A stretch of 64,000 nucleotides of DNA from a bacterium. Its GTDB lineage: Bacteria > Bacteroidota > Ignavibacteria > SZUA-365. Shown in pieces: positions 38,427 through 52,179 of the stretch. How positions within the stretch are numbered: the first letter of the stretch is position 1; the number at the start of each line of letters is the position of its first letter. Under the pieces are notes generated by a model. That model was not told where the DNA came from and ran no database searches. It saw only the letters and a program-made list of their open reading frames with translations. The position numbers were made by a program, and so were the translations under genes. The stretch lies in contig JAHLLD010000003.1 in NCBI GenBank assembly GCA_020444325.1, forward strand, positions 333,572 to 397,571. The letters are read 5' to 3'.

Positions 38427-40181
38427 TTACTTCGCGAAAAAGCTTTCGAGCTGTCGTATGCGTCCGTTGGAACAGCACAGGATATTTATGGCCGTATTGA
38501 TCCGGCTCTGCAGAAAATTCACCGGCGCACGCACGCCATGATGAATATTATGCAGTTTCTGCATAATCTGCGTCCGGTCCGTCGCACCGTCCTTCAAAAG
38601 GTTGAGCACGAGATGCATCGCATCGTAGCCGAAGAGAAATTCCGGACTCATCATCTGGTGACGTCTTCGCAGCGTTCTCCGCAGATTTCTCATCTCCACG
38701 GTGTTGCTGTCCGGCGCGACATCGGCCTCGAAATACACGGTGAGCCCGGCTGCTTCTCGCTGCAGCAGGTCTGGATGGTTCCAGTTTCCCGCGCCGATGA
38801 TGGTCTGTACACAACCGCTGTGCCGCACTCCCTTCAGCACTCTGACAATATCATCCCTGCTGCGCACAGGTGCAAAGAGGATACGTTTTTTTGCCCCGGT
38901 CGGGCGTTCCAGTCGTTTGCAGGTCTGTTCGAGATCATTATCCGCCCGACTGTAATACACAGGGTCAGCGATGTGCAGTCCCAGTTTTATTCCCCGTTCG
39001 TAAAAGGCCTCCGCCATCTCCCGCGGCCATGAATCATCCGGTGCAAGGACGACAGCTTCGGCGGCATCAAGCTCGAGACAGGCGAAGTCGGCGAGCAATC
39101 GCGCCCGCTCCTCCATCGGTGTATTGAGCTGAAAAATGTTTCTCCCCATGCGTGTGAGTCCGTCCGATGTCGCTGTAGGCAGCAAAACGGGCACATCCCG
39201 CTCGGCTGCCACCTCGCAGACGCGTTTTGCATCGCTGCTGAAGGCGCCGGCGAGCAGCGCTACAACCTGCGGATTCTGGAACAATGCATCAAGGCTGGTC
39301 GCAAGCGTATCGCTGGCATCGGAATGCAGCACGCGAATGCGCACTGATGGCTGCTTCCCCTCAGCGTAAAGATCGCAGGCCGTACGCATACCACGGAGGA
39401 GATGCTCCACCATTGCGCGTTTGCGCTCATCCTTCTCGCGTCCCGGAACTGCAACGGCCACGATGACTTCCTCCACCGCTTTTTTGGCTGCGCGCTTTTC
39501 CTTTCCCTGAGGCTGCCCATCTGGTGTCGGGTCGACAGCTCCCCCGCGTTGCCGTCCGGCCTGCACCTGCGTCAGCTCGGGTCGTAATCCAAGTACTGCG
39601 GCCAGTTCCTCACCTGAGGGAATACTTTTGAGGAGGGTTTCCGTTTTGCGCGTGTCATACGGAGAGAGTACGGGCTTCTGCATCTCAGCCAGTTTCCGGC
39701 GCAGCAGCAACGTATCGGAAAAGCCGGTGATCCATGCACGCAGATAGCATTCTACTGCGCGCGCACTGCCCCCTGCCAACCGCGTGGCATCCCCGGAAAT
39801 CAGCCAGCTCTCAGGGACATATGCACTTTCTGCATATCTGTCTCTGAACTCCTCGAGCAGACGCAAACCGGGTTTTGGATTCCCGGCGAACAGATACGCA
39901 CGCGCTGCCATGATGTAGGATGCGGTGGTACGCTGATGCAGTGTCTGCTGCCTGGCGAGTTTCCGGAACGATTCGGCTGCCGCTGGATACTGCTCCGCGG
40001 TGAATTCCTCGAGTGCCTGCCTGAAGCGTGCCTCCTCTTCCTCCCCGTATGGAATGGGCACCTGTGCGCGCGCAGGCATTGCAAGGAAAACAAGGACAAG
40101 GAGGAAAAGACTACGGGGAAACAGGTTTATCCTGCGGTGTAAAATATCGAAGCTGTTCCAGTGCATCTTCATTATCTGCAT
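38427..40181 (-). CDS. TPR plus type 1 periplasmic-binding-fold protein (LpoA-like)
   Basis: 584 aa. A signal peptide ending in ARAQ, then TPR-like helices (about residues 45-165, YAESAYVPESWLISGDATRL), a short charged linker, and from about 240 a periplasmic binding protein fold of the amino-acid receptor type (LLAGAFSSDAKRVCEVAAERDVPVLLPTATSDGL in part). No permease or ATPase genes are nearby. The TPR-plus-PBP order matches LpoA, the outer-membrane activator of PBP1A, though this protein has no clear lipobox. Start uncertain: ATGs at 40181, 40172 and 40166 all overlap the upstream TPR gene. Two 17-bp palindromes lie inside it. Confidence 0.8.
   Translation of the reverse strand: MQIMKMHWNSFDILHRRINLFPRSLFLLVLVFLAMPARAQVPIPYGEEEEARFRQALEEFTAEQYPAAAESFRKLARQQTLHQRTTASYIMAARAYLFAGNPKPGLRLLEEFRDRYAESAYVPESWLISGDATRLAGGSARAVECYLRAWITGFSDTLLLRRKLAEMQKPVLSPYDTRKTETLLKSIPSGEELAAVLGLRPELTQVQAGRQRGGAVDPTPDGQPQGKEKRAAKKAVEEVIVAVAVPGREKDERKRAMVEHLLRGMRTACDLYAEGKQPSVRIRVLHSDASDTLATSLDALFQNPQVVALLAGAFSSDAKRVCEVAAERDVPVLLPTATSDGLTRMGRNIFQLNTPMEERARLLADFACLELDAAEAVVLAPDDSWPREMAEAFYERGIKLGLHIADPVYYSRADNDLEQTCKRLERPTGAKKRILFAPVRSRDDIVRVLKGVRHSGCVQTIIGAGNWNHPDLLQREAAGLTVYFEADVAPDSNTVEMRNLRRTLRRRHQMMSPEFLFGYDAMHLVLNLLKDGATDRTQIMQKLHNIHHGVRAPVNFLQSRINTAINILCCSNGRIRQLESFFAK
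38549..38565. repeat. 17-bp palindrome copy in the LpoA-like gene, 3' part
   Basis: TATGCAGTTTCTGCATA, identical to two copies at 5524 and 5609. The symmetry extends two bases further on each side (ATTATGCAG...CTGCATAAT). Encodes part of MQKLHN about 45 residues from the C-terminus. Confidence 0.85.
39820..39836. repeat. 17-bp palindrome copy in the LpoA-like gene, TPR part
   Basis: TATGCACTTTCTGCATA, within codons for YAESAY in a TPR helix. TPR proteins of the YbgF type often have Y-x-x-S-x-Y here, so the amino-acid constraint alone could explain part of this copy. Confidence 0.65.
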
Positions 40182-41007
40182 CGATGTCGAGGACGTTGCG
40201 GAAATATTCTTCCGCGCGTTTTCGGTTGGATTTCAGCAGGGCGAGCTTGCCGAGTGAAAGCAGGGCGGGTACGGATTCCTGATCCTGGAGCAGCGCTTCC
40301 TTGAGCACGAGCTCGGCATTGTCGAAATCACGAAGTTTCATGTATGCACCGGCCATGGCGACGCGTGCATCATTGTGTTCCCGATCGGTGAGCAGCAGTG
40401 TGCGGAACGCGAGAACTGCTTCCTCCCACTGCTCTGCGGCCATGCGTGCGCGTCCGAGCACGAACTGCACCTGCACATCGCGTGGTGCGCGGGCAGCAGT
40501 ATTTGCGAGCACGGTAACGGCGTCATGGGGTTTTCCGGAACGCAGCAGTGTTTCCCCGAGTGCCAGGGCTGTCCCGGTATTGTCAGGTTGAAACTCCAGG
40601 CTCAGCCGCAGGTGCCGTTCGGCGTGTGCCAGTTCGCCCTGCCGCCAGTATATGAGTCCGAGCGAATAATGCACCTTCGGCAATTTCTGTCCCGCAAGCT
40701 GCTGCATGTAAAACAGCGCACGATCGAGGTCATCACTCTGATAGCAGGCGATGCCGAGGGAGTAAAGGATATCGGGATTGTGTGCGTCGTGTCGCAGTGC
40801 CTGCAGCAGGATCACTTCCGCAGCCTGGAGATTCCCCATTTCGAGATACACGTTCCCGAGCCTGATGCGAAGATCGAGACGTTCGGGAAAGGTATCGATC
40901 AGGCGCTGATACACCTGCACGGCATGCAGCCACATGGCGTGATCCTCATAGTACCGGGCTTCGTCAAGAAGCTGACTGACACGGTGTTCGTTCACGCTTA
41001 TTCCCAC
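40111..41007 (-). CDS. tetratricopeptide-repeat protein
   Basis: 298 aa, at least six TPR units over almost the whole length (for example [23 protein letters not shown] and [28 protein letters not shown] in parts). No signal peptide, so cytoplasmic unless the start is wrong. Start taken as GTG 41007, overlapping the guaA stop by 10 bases; GTG 40995 is another choice. Its 3' end overlaps the LpoA-like gene start. Likely a scaffold; partner unknown. Confidence 0.85.
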
Positions 41008-42539
41008 TCGATGGTTGCTGGCGGCTTGGAGCTGATATCGTAAACAACACGGTTGACACCGCGTACTTCGTTGATGACGCGGTTGGAAATCCGCTCGAGC
41101 ACATTGTAGGGAACACGTGCCCAGTCGGCGGTCATGCCGTCGAGACTGGTGACCGCGCGCAGCGCGATCGTGAATTCATAGGTGCGCGCATCGCCCATGA
41201 CACCAACGGATTTGACAGGCAGCAGCACGGAAAACGCCTGCCAGATATTATCATATTCCCCTGCCTTTCGGATTTCCTCGAGATAGATTTCATCCACCTC
41301 GCGAAGCAGGTCGAGCTGCTCGCGATCAATCGCGCCAAGGACGCGGATTGCGAGTCCGGGACCGGGGAACGGGTGCCGTTCGAGAATATGTGCAGGAATG
41401 CCGAGTTCTCTGCCGACACTGCGCACTTCATCCTTGAACAGTTCGCGGAAAGGCTCGATGAGCTTGAAGTTCATACGCTCGGGGAGTCCGCCGACATTGT
41501 GATGCGACTTGATCGTGGCTGAGGGACCCTTGAAATTCACGGATTCGATAACATCCGGGTACAGTGTACCCTGCGCGAGGAAGGCTGCATCGCGGAACTC
41601 GGCGGCTTCTTTCTCGAACACTTCTATGAAGGTGTTGCCGATGATCTTGCGCTTCTGTTCGGGATCGGTAACACCGGCGAGTTTATCGAGGAAGAGATCG
41701 GTGGCATCCACGAATTTCAACGGAATGTGGAATTCGTCGCGGAAGGTTTCAACGACCTGGGCGCTTTCGTTCTTCCGCATCACCCCGTTGTCGATGTGGA
41801 TGCACTGCAGCTGATCGCCGATCGCTTCATGCAGCAGGACGGCGGCAACCGCGGAATCGACACCACCACTCAGCGCACAGATGACGCGCTGATCACCGAC
41901 GGTGGATCGGATGTCTTCGATCGACTGTTCGATGAAGGACCGTGGGTTCCAGCCACCCTTCGCACCGGCGATCCCATAGACGAAGTTTTTCAGGATTGTT
42001 TTTCCTTCCGCCGAATGCACCACCTCGGGGTGAAACTGCACACCGTATTGTTTTTTTGCGGCGTTGCGGATCGCACAGATCGGTGCGTTCTCCGTATGCG
42101 CGATCACTTCGAAATCCGATGGAATCTTCGAGAGCGAATCGCCATGACTCATCCAGACCACACTGTCGGTTGCAACGCCCGAGAACAGGTCGTCCTGGTT
42201 GTCGAGCTTGAGTTCCGCCTTTCCGTATTCACGCCGCGCCGCGGGATCAACGGCACCATCATGATGCACCGCAATCAGCTGCAGTCCGTAGCAGATGCCA
42301 AGAACGGGAATATCGAGTTCGAAGATATCTTCGGAGACGCGCGGCGCGCCCTCCTCGTACACGCTGTTGGGTCCGCCACTGAGAATGATCCCGACGGGAC
42401 GGTTTGCCTTGATGGCGTCCATCGCGAGATGAAAGGGGTGAATCTCACAGTACACACCGAGTTCCCGGATGCGGCGCGCGATGAGCTGGGTATACTGAGA
42501 CCCGAAATCCAGAATACAGATCCATTCAGGGTGATGCAT
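40998..42539 (-). CDS. guaA: GMP synthase (glutamine-hydrolysing)
   Basis: 513 aa; XMP + Gln + ATP to GMP. N-terminal class I amidotransferase with nucleophile Cys in [10 protein letters not shown] and the His-Glu pair in [13 protein letters not shown]-pyrophosphatase loop [15 protein letters not shown], then the C-terminal dimerisation domain ending ATIEWE. Full length. Located between gcvH and the TPR gene with a terminator upstream, so it probably has its own promoter. Confidence 0.97.
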
Positions 42540-42557
42540 GACATTTCCGCGGGAGGT

Positions 42558-42601
42558 GAAAAAAACGCTGACCGGACGGAAGCTTCCTCCATCCGGTCAG
42601 C
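42558..42601 (-). terminator. rho-independent terminator after gcvH
   Basis: Perfect 10-bp stem GCTGACCGGA (42567-42576) with TCCGGTCAGC (42592-42601). On the minus strand a run of seven T follows the stem (42559-42565). It ends the efp-accB-accC-gcvH run before guaA. Confidence 0.88.
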
Positions 42602-42619
42602 ACAATTGTGAGGGTGTGA

Positions 42620-42997
42620 CTACTGTCCGATCAGTGCCTTGTACTTCTCAACGTCAAGCAGTCCATCGAGATCACCTTCATTGTCGATGCTCATCTTCAC
42701 CATCCAGCCGTTGCCGTAGGGATCCGAGTTGACGATTTCCGGGCTTCCCTCGAGCTCACTGTTGATTTCGGTAATCGTACCTGCGATGGGAGCGATCAGG
42801 TCGGATACAGTCTTCACTGCCTCGATGCTGCCGAAGCTTTCGCCTGCTGTCACAGCGCGTGCTTCGGGAATATCGACGAATACCACGTCTCCGAGCTCAC
42901 CCTGTGCATACTCGGTGATTCCGATGGTGGCAACGCCGTCTTCGACCTTTACCCACTCATGAGAATCGGTGTACTTGAGATTTTCGGGGAAATTCAT
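42620..42997 (-). CDS. gcvH: glycine cleavage system H protein
   Basis: 125 aa, lipoyl carrier of the glycine cleavage complex. The lipoyl-lysine is in SIEAVKTVSDLIAP (about residue 63), and the C-terminal GNGWMVKMSI strand fits. AAGGAG before ATG 42997. The P, T and L partners are not in the window, and it follows accC by about 40 bases. A terminator ends the unit. Confidence 0.96.
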   Translation of the reverse strand: MNFPENLKYTDSHEWVKVEDGVATIGITEYAQGELGDVVFVDIPEARAVTAGESFGSIEAVKTVSDLIAPIAGTITEINSELEGSPEIVNSDPYGNGWMVKMSIDNEGDLDGLLDVEKYKALIGQ

Positions 42998-43039
42998 AGA
43001 TCACTCCTTGAAAAAAACCGGTGATATTGCTTGTCTGAA

Positions 43040-44374
43040 TTATTCGAACGATTCGAGGAAATGCGTATCGAAATCGCCTTCCCTGAATTTGCTGTTCAGC
43101 ATGACTTTTTTGTGAAACGGAATGGTGGAGCTCACGCCTTCGATGATGAACTCCTCGAGCGCCTGCCGCATGCGGTCAATAGCCTCTTCCCGGTTGCTGC
43201 CGTAAACGATGAGCTTTGCGATCATCGAGTCGTAATACGGTGGGATGCGATACCCTTGGTACGCGTGGGATTCAACGCGCACACCGAGTCCGCTCGGCGA
43301 ATGCCAGGTCACGATGCGGCCCGGAGAGGGACGAAAATCGTGATCCGGGTCCTCGGCATTGATACGGCATTCAATCGAGTGTCCCTTCGGTGGCGCGTAG
43401 CCTTCCTCCGGCAGCGCTTCCCCGGCGGCGATCCGTATCTGTTCACGAATAAGATCGACGCCCGTCACCTCTTCGGTTACGGGGTGTTCGACCTGAATAC
43501 GTGTATTCATTTCCATGAAATAGAAACTGCCGCTGGCATCGAGCAGAAACTCGATGGTGCCGGCGCCTTCGTAGTTGATACTCTTTGCGGCGGCAACGGC
43601 GGCGTCTCCCATGCGCTGACGCAGCTCGGGCGTTACCGCGGGAGACGGTGATTCCTCGATCAGTTTCTGATGCCTGCGTTGAATCGAACAGTCACGTTCC
43701 CCGAGATGCACGACATTGCCGTGCTGATCACCGAGGATCTGCACCTCGACGTGACGGGGACGCTCGATGTATTTTTCGATGTACAGGTCGCCGTTGTTGA
43801 AGGAAGATTCCGCTTCCGCCTTAGCCATACGGAACTGACGGTCGAACTCCTCCTTATCACGCACGATGCGCATGCCTTTGCCTCCGCCTCCGGCCGATGC
43901 CTTGATGATGACCGGCATGTCCATTCCCTCGAGCACGGCATGCGCCGCGTCAAGGTCTTTCACCACACCGTCACTGCCGGGCACCGTCGGAACGTTGGCC
44001 TCCTGCACCGTGGCCTTGGCGAGGGATTTGTTTCCCATGCGGTTGATCATGTCTGGCGAAGGACCGATGAATTTGATCCCCGACTCCTGGCATATTTCTG
44101 AAAACTCGGCGTTTTCAGCGAGGAAACCGTACCCGGGATGAATGGCGTCGGCACCGGTAATTTCCGCAGCAGCGAGGATGCGGGGAATGTTGAGATAACT
44201 TTCGCGTCCCGCCGGGGGACCGATACAGACGGCTTCGTCCGCAAAACGCACGTGCAGGGAATCCTCGTCCGCCGTGGAATACACCGCGACGGTGGGCACA
44301 CCCATGACTTTGCAGGTGCGGATAATACGGAGAGCTATTTCGCCTCTGTTGGCGATCAGAATTTTCGAAAACAC
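43040..44374 (-). CDS. accC: acetyl-CoA carboxylase biotin carboxylase subunit
   Basis: 444 aa, ATP-grasp enzyme that carboxylates biotin on AccB, the first step of fatty-acid synthesis. N-terminal [18 protein letters not shown], the Gly-rich [27 protein letters not shown] and the RINAEDP block are all present. GTG start at 44374 with GAGGT upstream. 44 bases after accB in a conserved efp-accB-accC order. Confidence 0.97.
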
Positions 44375-44418
44375 GTGGGAACCTCGATTTCGGTTAGCGT
44401 CCCTCGAGGGAAGCGGTG

Positions 44419-44895
44419 TTAAGAAGGATCAATGACGAAAAGCGGCTGGTCGTATTCCACCGGCTGTCCGTTCTCGACGAGAATCTTCTTGAGGGTGCCA
44501 GAGACATCGGCTTCGATCTCGTTCATGATTTTCATCGCTTCGATGATGCAGATCGACTGTCCCTTGGTCACGCTCTGGCCGACTTCCACGAAGGGTGCGT
44601 CTTCCGGTGACGGTGCGCGGTAGAACGTACCAACGATGGGACTCCGCACCTCGTGTCCGCTTTCCGCTGCAGCCGGAGCAGCCTCCGCAGCCGCTTCCGT
44701 CGCCGGTGCAGGTGCTGCCGCGGGGACAGGTGCGGCCACAGGTGCTGCCGGGGCGGCGGCAATCTGTGCGACAGGCATTTCGCTGTAATGCGTACGCGTG
44801 ACGCGCAGACGCATGCCTTCCTCTTCGACTTCAAGCTCGGCTATCTGGCTGTCTGTCACGATTTTTACGAGTTTCCGAATTAACTGTACGTCCAT
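44419..44895 (-). CDS. accB: biotin carboxyl carrier protein of acetyl-CoA carboxylase
   Basis: 158 aa. N-terminal helix region ([27 protein letters not shown]), a Pro/Ala-rich flexible linker (about 55-85), and a biotinyl domain with the biotin-accepting Lys in [17 protein letters not shown] before ATG 44895. Partner of AccC, encoded next. Confidence 0.97.
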
Positions 44896-44928
44896 TTCGG
44901 CTCCGTGTATAATAGAATCATTAGCGTA

Positions 44929-45489
44929 TTACTTGACGCGCTCGAGATACTCACCGGATCGTGTATCGATCTTGAGCACTTCACCTTCTTCAATGAAGAG
45001 TGGGACGTTCACCGTCGCACCGGTTTCCACAATGGCTTTCTTGCTGCCACCCTGTGCGGTGTCGCCACGCACGCCGGGTTCGGTCTCCGTCACCTCGAGC
45101 TCCACTGTGATCGGGAGTTCTCCGGAAATGGCGGTTTCACCATCCATCAGAATCTCGCACACTTCTCCTTCCTTGAGGAAACGCACGGAATCTCCGAAGT
45201 TTTCTGCAGAAACATGAATCTGGTCATAGGTTTCCTGATCCATGAAGCAGAGGTATTCGCCCTCGGGGTAGAGGTATTGAAACTTCCGGCGTTCGACGCG
45301 CACGACGTCCACGTTCTCACTGGGACGAAAACGCTGTTCGAAGCTTGCGCCCGTGCGCATGTTTCTGAGTTTGGTCTGTACCATGGCGCCGCCCTTTCCA
45401 GGCTTGTGATGGCGCCATTCAACGATTTGATGCAATTCGCCGTTGAAGCGGATGATCAATCCGTTCCGAAAATCCGTCGTTGAACCCAT
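44929..45489 (-). CDS. efp: translation elongation factor P
   Basis: 186 aa, three-domain EF-P that relieves ribosome stalling at polyproline. The domain I loop is KPGKGGA with Lys32 at the modification position. Neither EpmA/EpmB nor EarP genes are in the window, so the type of modification is open. First gene of the efp-accB-accC-gcvH run, divergent from the lipoprotein cassette at 45714. Confidence 0.96.
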   Translation of the reverse strand: MGSTTDFRNGLIIRFNGELHQIVEWRHHKPGKGGAMVQTKLRNMRTGASFEQRFRPSENVDVVRVERRKFQYLYPEGEYLCFMDQETYDQIHVSAENFGDSVRFLKEGEVCEILMDGETAISGELPITVELEVTETEPGVRGDTAQGGSKKAIVETGATVNVPLFIEEGEVLKIDTRSGEYLERVK

Positions 45490-45713: not shown

Positions 45714-46778
45714 ATGAAAAATCAGAACACAACAAACAGCTCAGCTCCGGAAAATCGCGATGCGCTGCATGGTGGGGTTGCCGTGGGAACGCGCATTCTC
45801 CTTCTTGTTCTGCTCCTTCTTCCCTTCGCTGGCTGCGGCAAGGGCGACAAGGCGATTCCAAAGGAGGAAACCGGAGAGCCCAATGCCATTTCTCCGGAAT
45901 TGCAGCTGTATAAGGACGCCCGCAGCACGTTTCGCGACTGGGTGACGCTGTTCCAGCGTCCCAGGGAAACTGCTGGTCCTTTTAGGGACCTGTCCGCCGT
46001 GAGCCGCCGCCGTCTCGCGGCACGGGGCGTGAAGAATGCGAAGGAGTTCGCGGACTGGATGCAGCGCGAGGAGGATCGCGGCAGGGCTCCGTTCATATAC
46101 GAATTTTCGCGTTTTGACATTCTTGACATCGATGTGCGCGACAGCAGCAAGGCGGTGATCACGGCGAGTTTTCTCGTACACCGGCACCAGAACACGTTTG
46201 AAAGCGTGAGTTCGTTTTTCCTCGTCCGCGAGAATGGCACATGGCGCGTACCGTTCGCGGAGTCCGGCAATTTCGAAACGTCATGGTGGCAAAAGGAAAA
46301 AAACTTCCTCTCACGGCTGCGGGAGGAAGGCATGGCCCATTATGTGGAAGATGATATAGGACTGAGTTTCGCCTACCCGATGACCTGGGATATCAACGAC
46401 CACGTCTCCGTCGGTTTCCCCGGTGAAGGAACACATGAGGGATACGAGCTGCAGTACATCGACCCCACAACTCTTACTCCTGCCGCCATCGTGCGCATAG
46501 CGGTGCTCACACCTGATGGGACCATGATTACGGACACGCTTTCAGGCTCCGCTGAAGCTGATTCCAGCCGGGGTCTGATCATGGAGTCACGCCGGGTCGT
46601 GCAACCGGAACAAGCCTCCCCCATGGCAGGTACACTGCAGGTGCTGCGCTCGGCAGAAGATGGCCGGCGCGTGCTTTTCTACACGCTCTTCGCCGGCGAA
46701 GGCGAGAGCAGCCGTTTCGATCAGACCTTCAAGAGCATACGACAGTCCATCATTCTCCACAAGGAACAGATTCCCTGA
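45714..46778 (+). CDS. lipoprotein of unknown function
   Basis: 354 aa from ATG 45714, which gives a proper signal peptide; the frame upstream to 45609 is not coding-like. Lipobox LLPFAGCGKGD. The first mature half contains an NTF2/Tim44-like impression (FLVHRHQNTFESVSSFFLVRENGTWRVPF in part). The second half (about 215-350) is a PsbP-like or stress-response-like beta domain (IGLSFAYPMTWDINDHVSVGFP in part). No firm family. First gene of a four-gene envelope cassette. Confidence 0.8.
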   Translation: MKNQNTTNSSAPENRDALHGGVAVGTRILLLVLLLLPFAGCGKGDKAIPKEETGEPNAISPELQLYKDARSTFRDWVTLFQRPRETAGPFRDLSAVSRRRLAARGVKNAKEFADWMQREEDRGRAPFIYEFSRFDILDIDVRDSSKAVITASFLVHRHQNTFESVSSFFLVRENGTWRVPFAESGNFETSWWQKEKNFLSRLREEGMAHYVEDDIGLSFAYPMTWDINDHVSVGFPGEGTHEGYELQYIDPTTLTPAAIVRIAVLTPDGTMITDTLSGSAEADSSRGLIMESRRVVQPEQASPMAGTLQVLRSAEDGRRVLFYTLFAGEGESSRFDQTFKSIRQSIILHKEQIP

Positions 46779-47722
46779 TGCGCATATTCCTCGTCTTCTC
46801 TCTCCTTTTCCTTGGCTTCATTACCGCCTGTGGTTCGGATACCCGCGATCACGAATCCGCCACCGATGGCGGCAATGCATCAGCTGCAGCGACGGACTCC
46901 ACTCCCGCCGCTGAGCCGGCATCTGCCACACCTTCGAATCCCATGCAGCGCGCGGAACTGGGATATCATCCCGATCCCGCTCTCAAGAAGCAACTGCAGG
47001 CGGAACTGCTCGATATTGCAACCACGAGGAAGCAGAATGAAAGCGATGAGCAGATTCCTGCGATGATCAATGAGCTCACGAGTCTCTTCCGCTCCCTCTC
47101 CGTCACGGCCCGGGCGCTCGATCGTCACGGCGATTTCCAGAAGGAAATCAATACGGAAATCTCGCGGTTTCGACAGGCGGAAGTCGAGAAAACGGATGAT
47201 GCGGCAAAAATCATGAACGCCATGAGCGGTGTGTACCAGATGTACGCCCTGCTTGCGAAGATGAAATTCCTCGGGCAGCCGGAGAAGCAGGAAGAAATTC
47301 AGAAGATCAACGATATCACCGTGCAGAATCTGCGTCCCGGCTCACAGGCGGTGGAAGCGGCTGCATCGATTGCGGATGCCTGCTACAACCTGACTTCGAT
47401 GATCATGCAGGATATTGATTCTGAAAACCGTTTCGCGAAGGCATTCGAACAGATCGAACGGCAGTATCAGCAGGGAATACGCGTTGCGAAAAAGGAAGAA
47501 GACCATTACATCAACGGGATGTTCCGCACCTTCGAGGTCTCGCAGCTCTGGGCCCTGAGCCTGAATCCTGAGCGGGAGAAGGACGTGGCGAAAATGAACA
47601 AGGGTGTTTCCGACGAAAGTGCGGAAGCGGAAACCGTTGGCACACAGATGAATGTCGCCACACGGTATCTCTTTTTCATTTCGTATATCATTGCGGAAGA
47701 TACTGTCGAACTCACGCTCTGA
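46778..47722 (+). CDS. helical lipoprotein of unknown function
   Basis: 314 aa. Lipobox GFITACGS, then an Ala/Thr/Ser/Pro-rich linker of about 40 residues, then an all-helical domain (for example MINELTSLFRSLSVTARALDRH in part and QIERQYQQGIRVAKKEED). Not recognised. Its ATG shares one base with the previous stop (TGATG), so translation is probably coupled and the two lipoproteins may act together. Confidence 0.8.
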   Translation: MRIFLVFSLLFLGFITACGSDTRDHESATDGGNASAAATDSTPAAEPASATPSNPMQRAELGYHPDPALKKQLQAELLDIATTRKQNESDEQIPAMINELTSLFRSLSVTARALDRHGDFQKEINTEISRFRQAEVEKTDDAAKIMNAMSGVYQMYALLAKMKFLGQPEKQEEIQKINDITVQNLRPGSQAVEAAASIADACYNLTSMIMQDIDSENRFAKAFEQIERQYQQGIRVAKKEEDHYINGMFRTFEVSQLWALSLNPEREKDVAKMNKGVSDESAEAETVGTQMNVATRYLFFISYIIAEDTVELTL

Positions 47723-47733
47723 GCCCTGCTGAC

Positions 47734-48726
47734 ATGAGCACGTGCAGCGTACACACCATACAATTCGCCGAGCAGCCGGAACTGTGGCAGCAGTTGCATA
47801 CGGATGCCGGGAACCGGACCGTATTTTCCTCGCTCCCCTGGCTGCGGATTCTCGCCGAGCTGTTCGAGAGGGAAGCGTCCGCCGTGCTCCTGCTCAGAGG
47901 AGATCGTCCCGTCGCCGGGATTCCTCTCATGATGAAACGCCGGGGTTTTCTTCGCGCCACACCGCCGCTTCCGATTACGATGTATACAGGTCTGCTGCTT
48001 GTGGAAGACAGCAGGTTGTGGATGGAAGATATTCCCCTGCTGCTTCGTGCTGTTGAACGCCGCTGTCATTTTGCTTCACTTTCGACCGTATTACCCGAGC
48101 AGCTCCGGCAGCAATTCGTGTCGAGGCAATGGGATGTGAGGCGCATGCAGAACAGGACCCTGCAGCTGCATGACAGCGATACGCTGTGGCAGGGATACAG
48201 CCAGTCTCTCCGCAGGAAAATCCGACGCACCTCGGAAACGGGACTGCGCATCGACAGTGAAGCAAATCCGCAGACGCTGGCCGAGTGTTACAACGAAAGC
48301 TACAATCGCCACGGCATACTCCCCCCCATTCCCCCTGTACGCATTCAGGAATGGCTCACGAAGCTGCGGCGGCAGGGACTCGTGGATATGTATGCGGCGA
48401 CCCGGACGGATGGACGATGCGTCGCCACACGCGCAATGATACGGGATGGCGACACGCTGTATGACTGGCTTGCCGGTTCCAATCCCCCGCTCGCACCCTC
48501 CGGTTCGCACTGGCTGCTGCATCAGCTGCTTGAAAAATACCACGCCGAGGGATGCACGCGTTTTGATTTCATGGGCGCAAATACTCCGGGCGTCTCCGAC
48601 TTCAAGCGAAGCTTCGGCGGCACAGTGCAGAATTATGAAGAACTCGAATGGTATCGTCCGGCACTGCTCAAACAGGTGAATGCACTGCGCGGTCGCCTTC
48701 GAATGCGGCAGAGGGGACTGACATGA
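47734..48726 (+). CDS. GNAT/FemAB-like acyl- or aminoacyltransferase
   Basis: 330 aa, soluble. Two GNAT-like halves: residues about 30-120 (SLPWLRILAELF, AVLLLRGDRPVAGIPLMMKRR), and about 140-300 with SQSLRRKIRRTSETGLRI and HWLLHQLLEKYHAEGCTRFDFMGAN in part. The last block closely resembles the CelD/FemAB type (FDFMGxN). Likely transfers an acyl or amino-acid group to an envelope substrate; the acceptor is unknown. 11 bases after the lipoprotein; overlaps the next gene by ATGA. Confidence 0.8.
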   Translation: MSTCSVHTIQFAEQPELWQQLHTDAGNRTVFSSLPWLRILAELFEREASAVLLLRGDRPVAGIPLMMKRRGFLRATPPLPITMYTGLLLVEDSRLWMEDIPLLLRAVERRCHFASLSTVLPEQLRQQFVSRQWDVRRMQNRTLQLHDSDTLWQGYSQSLRRKIRRTSETGLRIDSEANPQTLAECYNESYNRHGILPPIPPVRIQEWLTKLRRQGLVDMYAATRTDGRCVATRAMIRDGDTLYDWLAGSNPPLAPSGSHWLLHQLLEKYHAEGCTRFDFMGANTPGVSDFKRSFGGTVQNYEELEWYRPALLKQVNALRGRLRMRQRGLT

Positions 48727-50909
48727 AAATGACCTTCATCAGTGCCGCAGCTGTTGCTGTTGTCCTCCTTGCCGGATCGCTTTTCGCCCAGGAGCTTCCC
48801 GCCGACACCGTGTCCCACGGAGCCGACACATCGCAAACGGTTGCACCTCTGCCCCTCTCACACGCAGATAGTCTGTCAACCGACAGCCTGAGCACAGACA
48901 GCCTGAACGAAGGCTTGCACACGGCTGCCGCTTTCGACAGCACTGTGGTCAGCGCAAAGCCAGGAAGGATTCTTCCCACCCTGCATGATTTCGGATCCTG
49001 GCGATGGAGCAGGGATTCACTCACCCTGCTTCCCTACCAGCGTGCTGCGGATGTTTTTGCTCTGCATCCCTTTTCGCATCTGGCCGATCTCGGCAATTTT
49101 GGTCAGCCCCACGGCATTTCCTTCGCTTCCGGATTGCCTTCCGCCTCTTCGGTGTCGCTGAACGGTGCGCCTTTTGATGATATTCTCACCGGTATGACAT
49201 CAACGGACATGCTGCCGCTGCAGGATCTGGCATCACTGACTGTCTATCCGCAGTACCAGGCGTTCTGGTACGGCGCACCGGGCGATGTCTTTGCCGCGGA
49301 TCTCAAGCAGCGCAAGTGGGATGCGCCGCGTCCCATTACCCGCCTTCGCCATACGGAGGCTGCAAACGAGTACCTCTTCACCGATGCCATGTTCACACTC
49401 AATACGGGAGAGAAGAGCAATATCTATCTCGCCGGCACACGTGTGACCATCGGTGGGGCCTCCGGAACACGGGCAGCACGCTTTGTCAACACTGTCGCCG
49501 AGTCCTGGAATCTCCGGGGCAGGTACCGGGAACAGATCAGTGATATTTTTACCATGTCGCTTGCGGTCCGCTACAACGATGATCTGACATACCAGAATGG
49601 TGGGATTGCTGCAATCTACGACGCCACGCTCGGCAGCTACACCTATCCGGTCAAAGGCAGCACCGCGTTTTCTGATGATGCCTTCGATCCCCTCACCGCC
49701 GAAGTCGCGAATACGACAATCGAAGCACATCGTCAGCGGTACACCGCGACCGGCGCACTGGAGATGCTGTGGACAGAGGATTCCTCACAGGTGACCACCG
49801 TGCAGGTACAGGCGATATCCGACGTGCGGCATTTCGTAGACACGCTGGTTACACAGTTCTCGTACCCGGCGCTCGAGCCGCTGGGACACCTGACGGATCA
49901 CTGGACGATGTACAGGGCGCAACTGGACCACGAAACCACGCTGCCCTGGGCGCGTCTGCGATTGCGGGGGCACCTCGCACGATTTGCCATCGACAAAGGC
50001 GGCGAGGCGCTGACGGAAACCGGACTTGAAAGCGGCGTCCGTGGACGCCTGGATCTGCTGCTCGGTCCGGTCGCACTGTCAGGATTCGGTGCACTCGACT
50101 ATCGCTATGATCAGACGGCCATCAGTCTCGGTGCAGGCGGTGAGCTGCCTCTCGGACCGATCGCCCTCTGGGGCGGTGTCTCATTCTCGCCCCGCATTCG
50201 CTCCTTCCTGGCGACAGCTTATCAGCCGGCGTTGCTGACGACCGTTGGCGACAGAACGCCCGATCTCGACAAGGTCAGCATCGCGGAAGGCGGTCTCCGA
50301 CTCTCCACAGACGTGCTTCATGCCGATCTGCGGGGATTCGTCCGACATGAAGACCGATATCTTCTGCTGCAGTCCGCTGCCTACAAGGATTCGCTTACCG
50401 GACGTTTTCCGCTGACGATTACCGAAATTGAAGGCGGTGCCACGCAGACGATAACTGGCGCATCCCTCAGCGCGGAACTCGCACTCTGGCGTTTCCGCAT
50501 TGATCAGCAGGTGACCTGGCAGCGCACTGACGGTGCGATATCCGCTCTCGACCAGGCGCTTGCTCCCGAATTGCGCTATAACGGCTCGCTGTATTACCGG
50601 GGGTCGCTGATCGAAGGGACGCTCGACCTGAAGGTCGGCGGCCAGTTTACCTACAGTGACAGCTATCTGCCTCTGGTCTGGAATCCTGAAGCAGGTATAT
50701 TCACTCTGCCGATCGACTTCAGCGACGGCGCTTCGAGTTATACCGACATGCAGCGCGTGGATCTTTTTCTTTTCGCAACCATCAAACAACGGGCGACGCT
50801 GTCAGTGGTGTTTTACAACGTGCTGAACAGCAATTACATTACCACTGCATTTTATCCGATGTACGACCGCGCCCTGCGCATCGGAGTAGATTGGATTTTC
50901 TTTGACTGA
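48723..50909 (+). CDS. TonB-receptor-like outer membrane beta-barrel protein
   Basis: 728 aa from ATG 48723. Signal peptide ending in FAQE, then a Thr/Ser/Asp-rich spacer with the repeat DSLSTDSLSTDSLN. A plug-like region follows (about 110-210, LPSASSVSLNGAPFDDI, LQDLASLTVYP), then alternating barrel strands to a C-terminal end of WIFFD. No classic TonB box or carboxypeptidase-like domain. It may be a porin-like relative of TonB receptors. Last member of the four-gene cassette; overlaps the transferase gene by four bases. Confidence 0.78.
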   Translation: MKMTFISAAAVAVVLLAGSLFAQELPADTVSHGADTSQTVAPLPLSHADSLSTDSLSTDSLNEGLHTAAAFDSTVVSAKPGRILPTLHDFGSWRWSRDSLTLLPYQRAADVFALHPFSHLADLGNFGQPHGISFASGLPSASSVSLNGAPFDDILTGMTSTDMLPLQDLASLTVYPQYQAFWYGAPGDVFAADLKQRKWDAPRPITRLRHTEAANEYLFTDAMFTLNTGEKSNIYLAGTRVTIGGASGTRAARFVNTVAESWNLRGRYREQISDIFTMSLAVRYNDDLTYQNGGIAAIYDATLGSYTYPVKGSTAFSDDAFDPLTAEVANTTIEAHRQRYTATGALEMLWTEDSSQVTTVQVQAISDVRHFVDTLVTQFSYPALEPLGHLTDHWTMYRAQLDHETTLPWARLRLRGHLARFAIDKGGEALTETGLESGVRGRLDLLLGPVALSGFGALDYRYDQTAISLGAGGELPLGPIALWGGVSFSPRIRSFLATAYQPALLTTVGDRTPDLDKVSIAEGGLRLSTDVLHADLRGFVRHEDRYLLLQSAAYKDSLTGRFPLTITEIEGGATQTITGASLSAELALWRFRIDQQVTWQRTDGAISALDQALAPELRYNGSLYYRGSLIEGTLDLKVGGQFTYSDSYLPLVWNPEAGIFTLPIDFSDGASSYTDMQRVDLFLFATIKQRATLSVVFYNVLNSNYITTAFYPMYDRALRIGVDWIFFD

Positions 50910-50994
50910 ACGCGGGAGTGCTTACGTTCCCTGCCAGCACCATACAACGTTTTCCTCGTTCCCGCCGAGGGAATTCTTACCTGGAGGTTTTCCT

Positions 50995-52179
50995 GTGAAA
51001 GACATTCGTAAAGCATCAATTGAAACGCAGACTGTACATGCCGGTATCGACGAAAACGAATACGGCGCAGTCGTACCACCTATTTACCAGACCTCGACCT
51101 TCAAGTTCCAGAACGTCGAACACGGTGCCGACCTGTTCGCGGGACGCGGCGACGGCTTCATTTACACCCGCATGCGCAATCCAACCGTGGAAGCAATGGA
51201 AAATGCCATTGCCGTGCTCGAAGGCGGAGCGAAAGGACTCGGATGCGGCAGCGGTATGGCAGCCATTCACACAGCGTTTGCTGCCACCGTCAAGGCAGGA
51301 GATCACGTCATCTCGAGTGAGTCGGTGTACGGTCCGACCAGCACCCTGCTCAAAACCATCATGCACAACTTCGGTGTCGAGAGCTCCCTGGTCGACACCT
51401 CTGACCTCGACGCCATCCGCAACGCCTTGCAGCCCAACACGAAGGTGATTTACGTTGAGACACCGGGAAATCCGACGCTCGTGATCAGCGACCTCGACGC
51501 CATCGCCAAAATCGCGCATGATGCGAATGCTTTGCTGATCGTCGATAATACGTTTATGGGACCCGTGATGCAGCGTCCCATCGAACTCGGGGCGGATGTT
51601 GTCGTCCACAGTCTCACCAAGTCCCTCAACGGACATGCAGACGTGGTCGGCGGTGTCATCGTCGTCAAGGATGAGGAAATGTACCCCACCTTCCGGAAAA
51701 CGCTCAACCAGATTGGCGGCGTCATTGATCCATTCAATTCCTTCCTGGTGCATCGCGGACTGAAAACACTCGCATTGCGTGTGCAGCGCGCATCGGAAAA
51801 TGCAGCGAAGGTCGCCACGTTTCTCGAAAATCACCCGAAGGTCGCGTGGGTGCGCTATCCCGGACTCCCCTCCCATCCGCAATATGAAATCGGTCAGAAG
51901 CAGATGAGCGGCGGCGGCATGATGATTTCGTTTGAGCTGACGGGCGGACTGGAAGCCGGCAAGAAACTGATGGACAACGTCAAGCTGGCGCTTCTTGCAG
52001 TCAGTCTCGGAGGCGTGGAATCCCTCATTCAGCATCCGGCAAGCATGACGCATGCCGGCATGGGCAAGGAACAGCGCGAAGCGGCAAAAATCACTGACGG
52101 ACTCGTACGTTTTTCTGTCGGGATCGAACATGTCGATGAAATCATTGCAGACCTCGAACACGCGCTCGAGCAGTGCTGA
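50995..52179 (+). CDS. PLP-dependent trans-sulfuration enzyme (Cys/Met metabolism family)
   Basis: 394 aa. PLP-Lys in VHSLTKSLNGHADVVGG, plus YTRMRNPTVEAMENAIAVLEGG, VETPGNPTL and the C-terminal SLGGVESLIQHPASMTH. Start chosen as GTG 50995, with GGAGG at 50983-50987; the frame is open upstream but unlike the family. Could be methionine gamma-lyase, cystathionine gamma-lyase or gamma-synthase. The active-site Cys of classical methionine gamma-lyases (YGCT) is Pro here (VYGPTSTLL), so the lyase name is not secure. Followed by a terminator. Confidence 0.9.
   Translation: MKDIRKASIETQTVHAGIDENEYGAVVPPIYQTSTFKFQNVEHGADLFAGRGDGFIYTRMRNPTVEAMENAIAVLEGGAKGLGCGSGMAAIHTAFAATVKAGDHVISSESVYGPTSTLLKTIMHNFGVESSLVDTSDLDAIRNALQPNTKVIYVETPGNPTLVISDLDAIAKIAHDANALLIVDNTFMGPVMQRPIELGADVVVHSLTKSLNGHADVVGGVIVVKDEEMYPTFRKTLNQIGGVIDPFNSFLVHRGLKTLALRVQRASENAAKVATFLENHPKVAWVRYPGLPSHPQYEIGQKQMSGGGMMISFELTGGLEAGKKLMDNVKLALLAVSLGGVESLIQHPASMTHAGMGKEQREAAKITDGLVRFSVGIEHVDEIIADLEHALEQC

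Follow-up and report, generated by a model that had tools for sequence, protein, structure and literature searches.

TonB-dependent receptors such as BtuB1, SusC/SusD pairs, the putative porins of the Porin_10 family and the FemABX or FemX-like transferases (DhpH-C, PacB) are the described systems with which the four genes discussed here can be compared. HfsK of Caulobacter, presented in the consulted part of the source as a double-GNAT relative of FemX acting on the holdfast (PMC5362036), and YbjP, a small, functionally uncharacterised DUF3828 lipoprotein of the outer membrane which, according to the consulted part of the source, partners the TolC channel (PMC13082787), complete the picture. 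The genes, called A to D, lie in a 64,000-nucleotide stretch, referred to as the window, from the genome of a bacterium of the SZUA-365 order (Bacteroidota, Ignavibacteria; assembly GCA_020444325.1, contig JAHLLD010000003.1, positions 333,572 to 397,571). The open reading frames (ORFs) were all found on the same, plus, strand, at the coordinates first reported. Gene A (45714-46778 in the ORF list) encodes a lipoprotein of 354 residues with a lipobox at Cys41, which belongs to an order-specific family, and gene B (46778-47722 in the same list) a lipoprotein of 314 residues predicted to be all-helical. Gene C (47734-48726) encodes a transferase of 330 residues of the FemX/HfsK-like GNAT type, and gene D (48723-50909) an outer-membrane beta-barrel of 728 residues with an N-terminal signal peptide. 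The conserved operon, along with a cross-linking enzyme plausibly ancestral to it, suggests that the genes specify an undescribed envelope module, a reading which is favoured here tentatively.

The notion that A-D are made together, put forward in an earlier note on this DNA, is well supported by the conservation of gene joints and gene order. In the window the stop codon of A and the start codon of B share the sequence TGATG (gap of -1), B and C are separated by 11 bases, and C and D overlap at ATGA (-4), exactly as described in that note. Joints are alike in the relatives, where the A/B distance ranges from -4 to +12, and the B/C distance from 9 to 19. Start codons in the relatives were picked by the authors among the listed candidates, and the A/B gap is 21 at locus L019 if a later start is used. 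A start codon for D (ATG, GTG or TTG) is possible at -4 in all 14 loci with a readable C/D joint. The four ORFs are real genes, because homologues of all their products occur in other genomes at about 25-70% identity, and both order and joints persist as identity drops to about 25-35%. Three of the four products are exported. A reading based on promoters and terminators was dropped, promoter-like sequences being 2 vs 2.7 expected, terminator-like sequences 7 vs 5.3 expected.

The distribution of the genes was monitored in a close set of 41 genomes, which includes the genome of the window (4.65 Mb, 25 contigs, completeness 100) and 40 relatives; 16 genomes belong to the order, 25 to the class outside the order. 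C was found in 21 genomes, D in 37, A and B in 14 each. By sequence search A and B are each present in 14 of the 16 order genomes, and in none of the other 25 genomes. By profile, A was identified in 15 order genomes, the sole miss being G015, which is 70% complete. The scan of genome contigs with a B profile confirmed 11 loci among 35 candidate stretches, all in order genomes already counted. A and B were also sought in 296 evenly drawn genomes of the phylum, and were found in the window genome, and in none of the 295 others. A-B-C-D reside on a single contig in 11 of the 16 order genomes (in G013 the contig end cuts D), while in G002, G011, G012, G014 and G015 the set is split or truncated by contig ends. 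None of the 16 genomes contradicts the A-B-C-D order, and the genes are thus not scattered in relatives.

C matches the Acetyltransf_6 family (PF13480) at E 1e-17, with 65 bits vs a cut-off of 22. The domain (48202-48609, residues 157-292) includes the FDFMGxN motif, in which F277, D278, F279, G281 and N283 are invariant in 14 of 14 members, and M280 is found in at least 90% of them. The motif, regarded in the earlier note as the end of the protein, is indeed conserved, but some 45 residues separate it from the C-terminus. A profile of the 14 members matches an aminoacyl-tRNA-dependent peptide synthase of known structure (PDB entries 9wqy, E 5.4e-8, and 9wqw, E 3.3e-7), and the invariant Phe290-Lys291 pair (48601-48606; 14 of 14 members) aligns with FK of 9wqy in the HMMER alignment. 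Lys305 of FemX from Weissella (FemX(Wv)), and Lys329 and Phe328 of DhpH-C, are active-site residues according to the consulted part of the source (PMC12945691). Matching of motifs by eye, rather than direct alignment, suggests that Lys291 of C may correspond to Lys305 of FemX, and Phe290-Lys291 to Phe328-Lys329 of DhpH-C. From sequence likeness, C is inferred to be a FemX-like acyl or aminoacyl transferase. No signal peptide was seen in C, which is probably located in the cytoplasm. Memberships in the classical FemAB and PEP-CTERM groups were considered and set aside, C being under the cut-offs of PF02388 and TIGR03019. C matches a superfamily (Acetyltransf_6, FemX-like), and no single well-known pathway.

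D passes the cut-off of Porin_10 (PF14121; 59.1 bits vs 27), a family matched by all 13 aligned members, with barrel strands located at the C-terminus (50448-50906, residues 576-728). The genome of the window has no other Porin_10 match, and D is single-copy both there and class-wide. With a profile built from the 13 members, matches were obtained to the BtuB1 plug (8blw, E 5.3e-8) and, at E 0.067, to a second receptor (8bmx). The plug-like domain covers about residues 92-200 (48996-49322, limits being approximate). The Pfam Plug model matches 4 of the 13 members (best E 1.8e-4), and the window protein is not among them. D is thus similar to TonB-dependent receptors in having a plug-like N-terminal domain before the barrel, but differs in the barrel itself. 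Porin_10, Plug and one chance match are the only Pfam families listed for the 13 members at E up to 1, and no TonB-dependent-receptor barrel model is found among them. The stretch preceding the plug is variable across the 13 sequences, and no conserved TonB box was seen in it by eye. The definition of D as a TonB-receptor-like barrel is consequently supported for the plug, although the barrel is Porin_10 by Pfam. D departs also from other Porin_10 proteins, since within the order it forms a set with A, B and C, and has other neighbours elsewhere in the class. No paper naming Porin_10 or PF14121 was found by literature search.

All the 12 aligned sequences of A carry the lipobox Cys. In the AF2 model (pLDDT 76.9, pTM 0.51) the protein folds into two domains, an N-terminal one (about residues 61-195; 45894-46298) of predicted NTF2-like (SnoaL/MecA_N-like) type, and a C-terminal one (about residues 205-349; 46326-46760) which resembles PsbP, Tsi3 and BT_1490. 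Pfam SnoaL_3 matches 4 of the 12 members (best E 4.1e-4), the window protein itself not being matched. In VIA, a second look at the list of Foldseek, the modelled N-domain scored Z 8.7-10.1 to the N-domains of PBP5 and PBP2a and to NTF2-like proteins, the modelled C-domain Z 11.0 to BT_1490 (3hlz), 9.2-9.5 to Tsi3 and 8.7-9.4 to PsbP-type chains; the Foldseek match to Tsi3 has an E of 1.6e-4. Tsi3 neutralises a muramidase. The structural matches of A, as modelled, denote likeness of fold, not of function. Searches of PDB sequences with A and B gave chance-level matches only, and no paper on a MecA_N/NTF2-like/PsbP lipoprotein was found by literature search. In one genome (G001:C4:24575-24742) the N-terminal part of A has a second, weak match (E 1.7e-4).

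The signal-peptide Cys of B is found in 11 of 13 sequences. Two members from the family f3 (L024:2108-3019 and L025:8240-9148) carry a signal sequence without lipobox Cys, and lipidation of B is therefore not universal. No convincing Pfam or PDB sequence match was found for B. The protein contains a duplication, the first half of which (47039-47338, residues 88-187) carries D115 and N147, the second (47339-47647, residues 188-290) D214 and N246, along with the invariant residues E241, D242, R250, T251 and E253. The two halves are related (hhalign E 1.9e-6, score 34.3, the highest among 30 column-shuffled controls being 19.6) and, among the invariant residues, D115/D214 and N147/N246 occupy matching places. 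The AF2 model (pLDDT 84.4, pTM 0.78) has ten helices, which can be read as five hairpins. In the VIA list only 8qkd, a designed single-chain alpha-helical barrel with five inner helices, stands clear (Z 20.8, root-mean-square deviation 2.9, 221 residues), the next row having a Z of 9.0. The Foldseek search with the B model gave nothing below E 1e-3, and the rows obtained (ABC transporters, XPR1, others) were discounted as helical arrangements of a common kind. In its model, B thus has five helix hairpins set out in the manner of an alpha-helical barrel. The likeness to 8qkd concerns the overall arrangement; 8qkd is a designed protein, whereas B is known as a model alone. Structure prediction, proposed in the earlier note for the products of A and B, thus pictures the former as a two-domain, the latter as an all-helical, barrel-like protein.

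In four order genomes (G007, G012, G013 and G014; loci L019, L024, L090 and L081) a gene for an L,D-transpeptidase immediately precedes A and has the same orientation. These include all the three readable genomes outside the family of the window. The YkuD family (PF03734) is matched with 70.8, 66.9 and 61.5 bits in L024, L090 and L019, vs a cut-off of 23.4, and the G014 protein is over the cut-off as well; a PF03734 genome search confirmed YkuD in all four genomes. The enzyme has a membrane segment, as judged by eye. In the D tree f3 branches outside the family f1, and G005 and G007 outside the rest of f1. According to this topology, the presence of the transpeptidase upstream of A is probably ancestral, and the gene may have been lost from the operon at least twice. 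The hypothesis that it has merely been relocated in the window genome was rejected, since the orthologue was not found there, though two other YkuD genes are present. In two other families, f7 (L086:1267-3465) and f15 (L088:1225-3639), a TonB_C gene comes after the homologue of the transpeptidase, whereas no TonB_C gene was seen beside the homologue in f13 (L084, L085). A literature search for a link between L,D-transpeptidases and TonB in Bacteroidota retrieved no paper.

An envelope role for the locus, suggested in the earlier note, is well supported by the conserved order and joints, the three exported products and, in basal relatives, the linkage of an L,D-transpeptidase gene. In the module tentatively proposed, C would act in the cytoplasm on a lipid-linked envelope precursor, which may be the stem peptide of peptidoglycan or else a surface glycan. 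The lipoproteins A and B would be anchored in the outer membrane on its periplasmic side, as partners of D, taken to be an ancient single-copy plugged barrel. The pairing of YbjP with TolC may be seen as an analogy for this putative partnership, although D is not a TolC protein, and the comparison is limited to the consulted part of that source. The NTF2-like and PsbP-like domains of A may work as docking or recognition modules, and the helical ring of B could hold a ligand, or form part of the path to the plug. The ancestral L,D-transpeptidase would have made or used a wall linkage; its later loss in most of f1 would imply that it is dispensable for the four-gene core. The module is supported by the conserved order and joints, the restriction of A and B to the order, the match of C to the peptide synthase along with the FK pair, the association of a plug with Porin_10 in D, and the upstream transpeptidase. 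The modelled folds of A may add to this, as N-domains of wall enzymes and Tsi3 are among their best matches, and so may the TonB gene adjoining the transpeptidase homologues of two other families.

Several observations weigh against the envelope module. C falls short of the FemAB family (PF02388; 15.1 bits vs a cut-off of 24), in which it differs from FemABX enzymes. A search for the transpeptidase orthologue gave nothing in the remaining 11 A-bearing order genomes, that of the window included, or in G015. Of the 25 genomes of the class that lie outside the order, 22 contain D; the surroundings of D were read in 20 of these 22, and showed neither A nor B, nor a C adjoining D. D occurs therefore class-wide with none of the other three genes beside it, and does not depend on them. 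Outside the order, weak relatives of C reside in 6 of the 25 genomes of the class, and D never adjoins them in the six loci read, from five of these genomes. At L027, the weak relative of C is preceded by genes for a proteasome subunit (HslV-like) and an AAA ATPase, and followed by a Polysacc_synt gene. The vicinity to a gene of the polysaccharide flippase type points to glycans rather than to the wall. Finally, the flanks of the operon are syntenic across the order (f1, f3), with EF-P, accBC, gcvH and guaA before, and a cystathionine-synthase-like gene after the four genes (by-eye labels). Adjacency alone may thus be inherited, and is weak evidence for joint function. More weight can be given in this respect to the fixed overlaps, to the export of three products, and to the finding of A and B in this order alone.

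The same data can be accommodated by other scenarios. D may be a TonB-dependent transporter involved in nutrient uptake, A and B substrate-binding lipoproteins playing a role similar to SusD or BtuG, and C an enzyme modifying the imported compound in the cytoplasm. This is possible, if rather doubtful. The plug similar to that of BtuB1, the 7 TonB_C matches in the window genome, the modelled ring of B, which could hold a ligand, and the L,D-transpeptidase homologues adjoining tonB in two families fit such a view. Yet no SusD model, nor any other binding-protein family, is found among the Pfam matches of A or B members, which sets the locus apart from SusC/SusD pairs, and a SusD-like identity for A and B was discarded. 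No conserved TonB box was seen by eye in the D alignment, the set is without an inner-membrane importer, and a single-copy D fits a general function better than the handling of one nutrient.

Alternatively, C could N-acylate an exopolysaccharide precursor in an HfsK-like manner, and D could export or anchor the polymer with the aid of A and B. The match of C to TIGR03019 (FemAB, XrtA/PEP-CTERM associated), which has an E of 5.8e-9 though it is far under the cut-off, the Polysacc_synt gene adjoining the weak relative of C, and the holdfast activity of the FemX homologue HfsK would agree with this. The likeness of C to HfsK is by description, taken from the consulted part of that source, not by sequence, and no holdfast or polysaccharide genes were noticed around C. 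Plugged barrels are as a rule importers. No glycosyltransferase or flippase was noticed in the conserved block, no export-protein family matches A or B, and the surface glycan is an unlikely explanation for the locus. It is more improbable that the four genes share nothing but an inherited neighbourhood, an ancient porin being by chance co-transcribed with three genes of separate functions. The housekeeping genes which hold their position in the same genomes, and the independence of D from A-C outside the order, are what this hypothesis would predict, whereas the D start at -4 in every readable locus, the A/B and B/C joints, nearly fixed in spite of deep divergence, the three exported products and the extra envelope gene in basal genomes are difficult to reconcile with it.

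The envelope module, if real, would imply that a plugged porin present class-wide has acquired periplasmic lipoproteins of its own, together with an enzyme that modifies a precursor. A single operon would then connect chemistry of the FemX type with L,D-transpeptidation and with a barrel in the outer membrane, offering a handle on the function of Porin_10. It would also bring two new families, A and B, the model of B being a helical ring best matched by a designed protein. One may go further, and speculate that B is a naturally occurring lipoprotein built as a single-chain alpha-helical barrel, working as a conduit or ligand cup under the plugged barrel. Along with the docking lipoprotein A, the cargo-preparing FemX-type C and, originally, the L,D-transpeptidase, it would form an undescribed envelope machine built around an ancient porin in one order. 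Taken as a whole, this is the least probable of the scenarios considered.

Minor observations concern the surroundings of these genes. The syntenic housekeeping block corresponds in the window to 38427-45489 (guaA, gcvH, accBC, EF-P) and 50902-52179 (cystathionine-synthase-like gene), all labels being assigned by eye. Some neighbours of D outside the order resemble IspE or a LOG-like protein (by-eye labels, no family search). In three loci of the family f9 (L027, L028 and L029) the weak C relative is found by a Polysacc_synt gene, behind HslVU-like and sigma-54 genes, families having been checked in L027 only. Paired neighbouring TonB_C matches are located outside the window, at G000:C2:62509-63550 and G000:C5:335006-335823.

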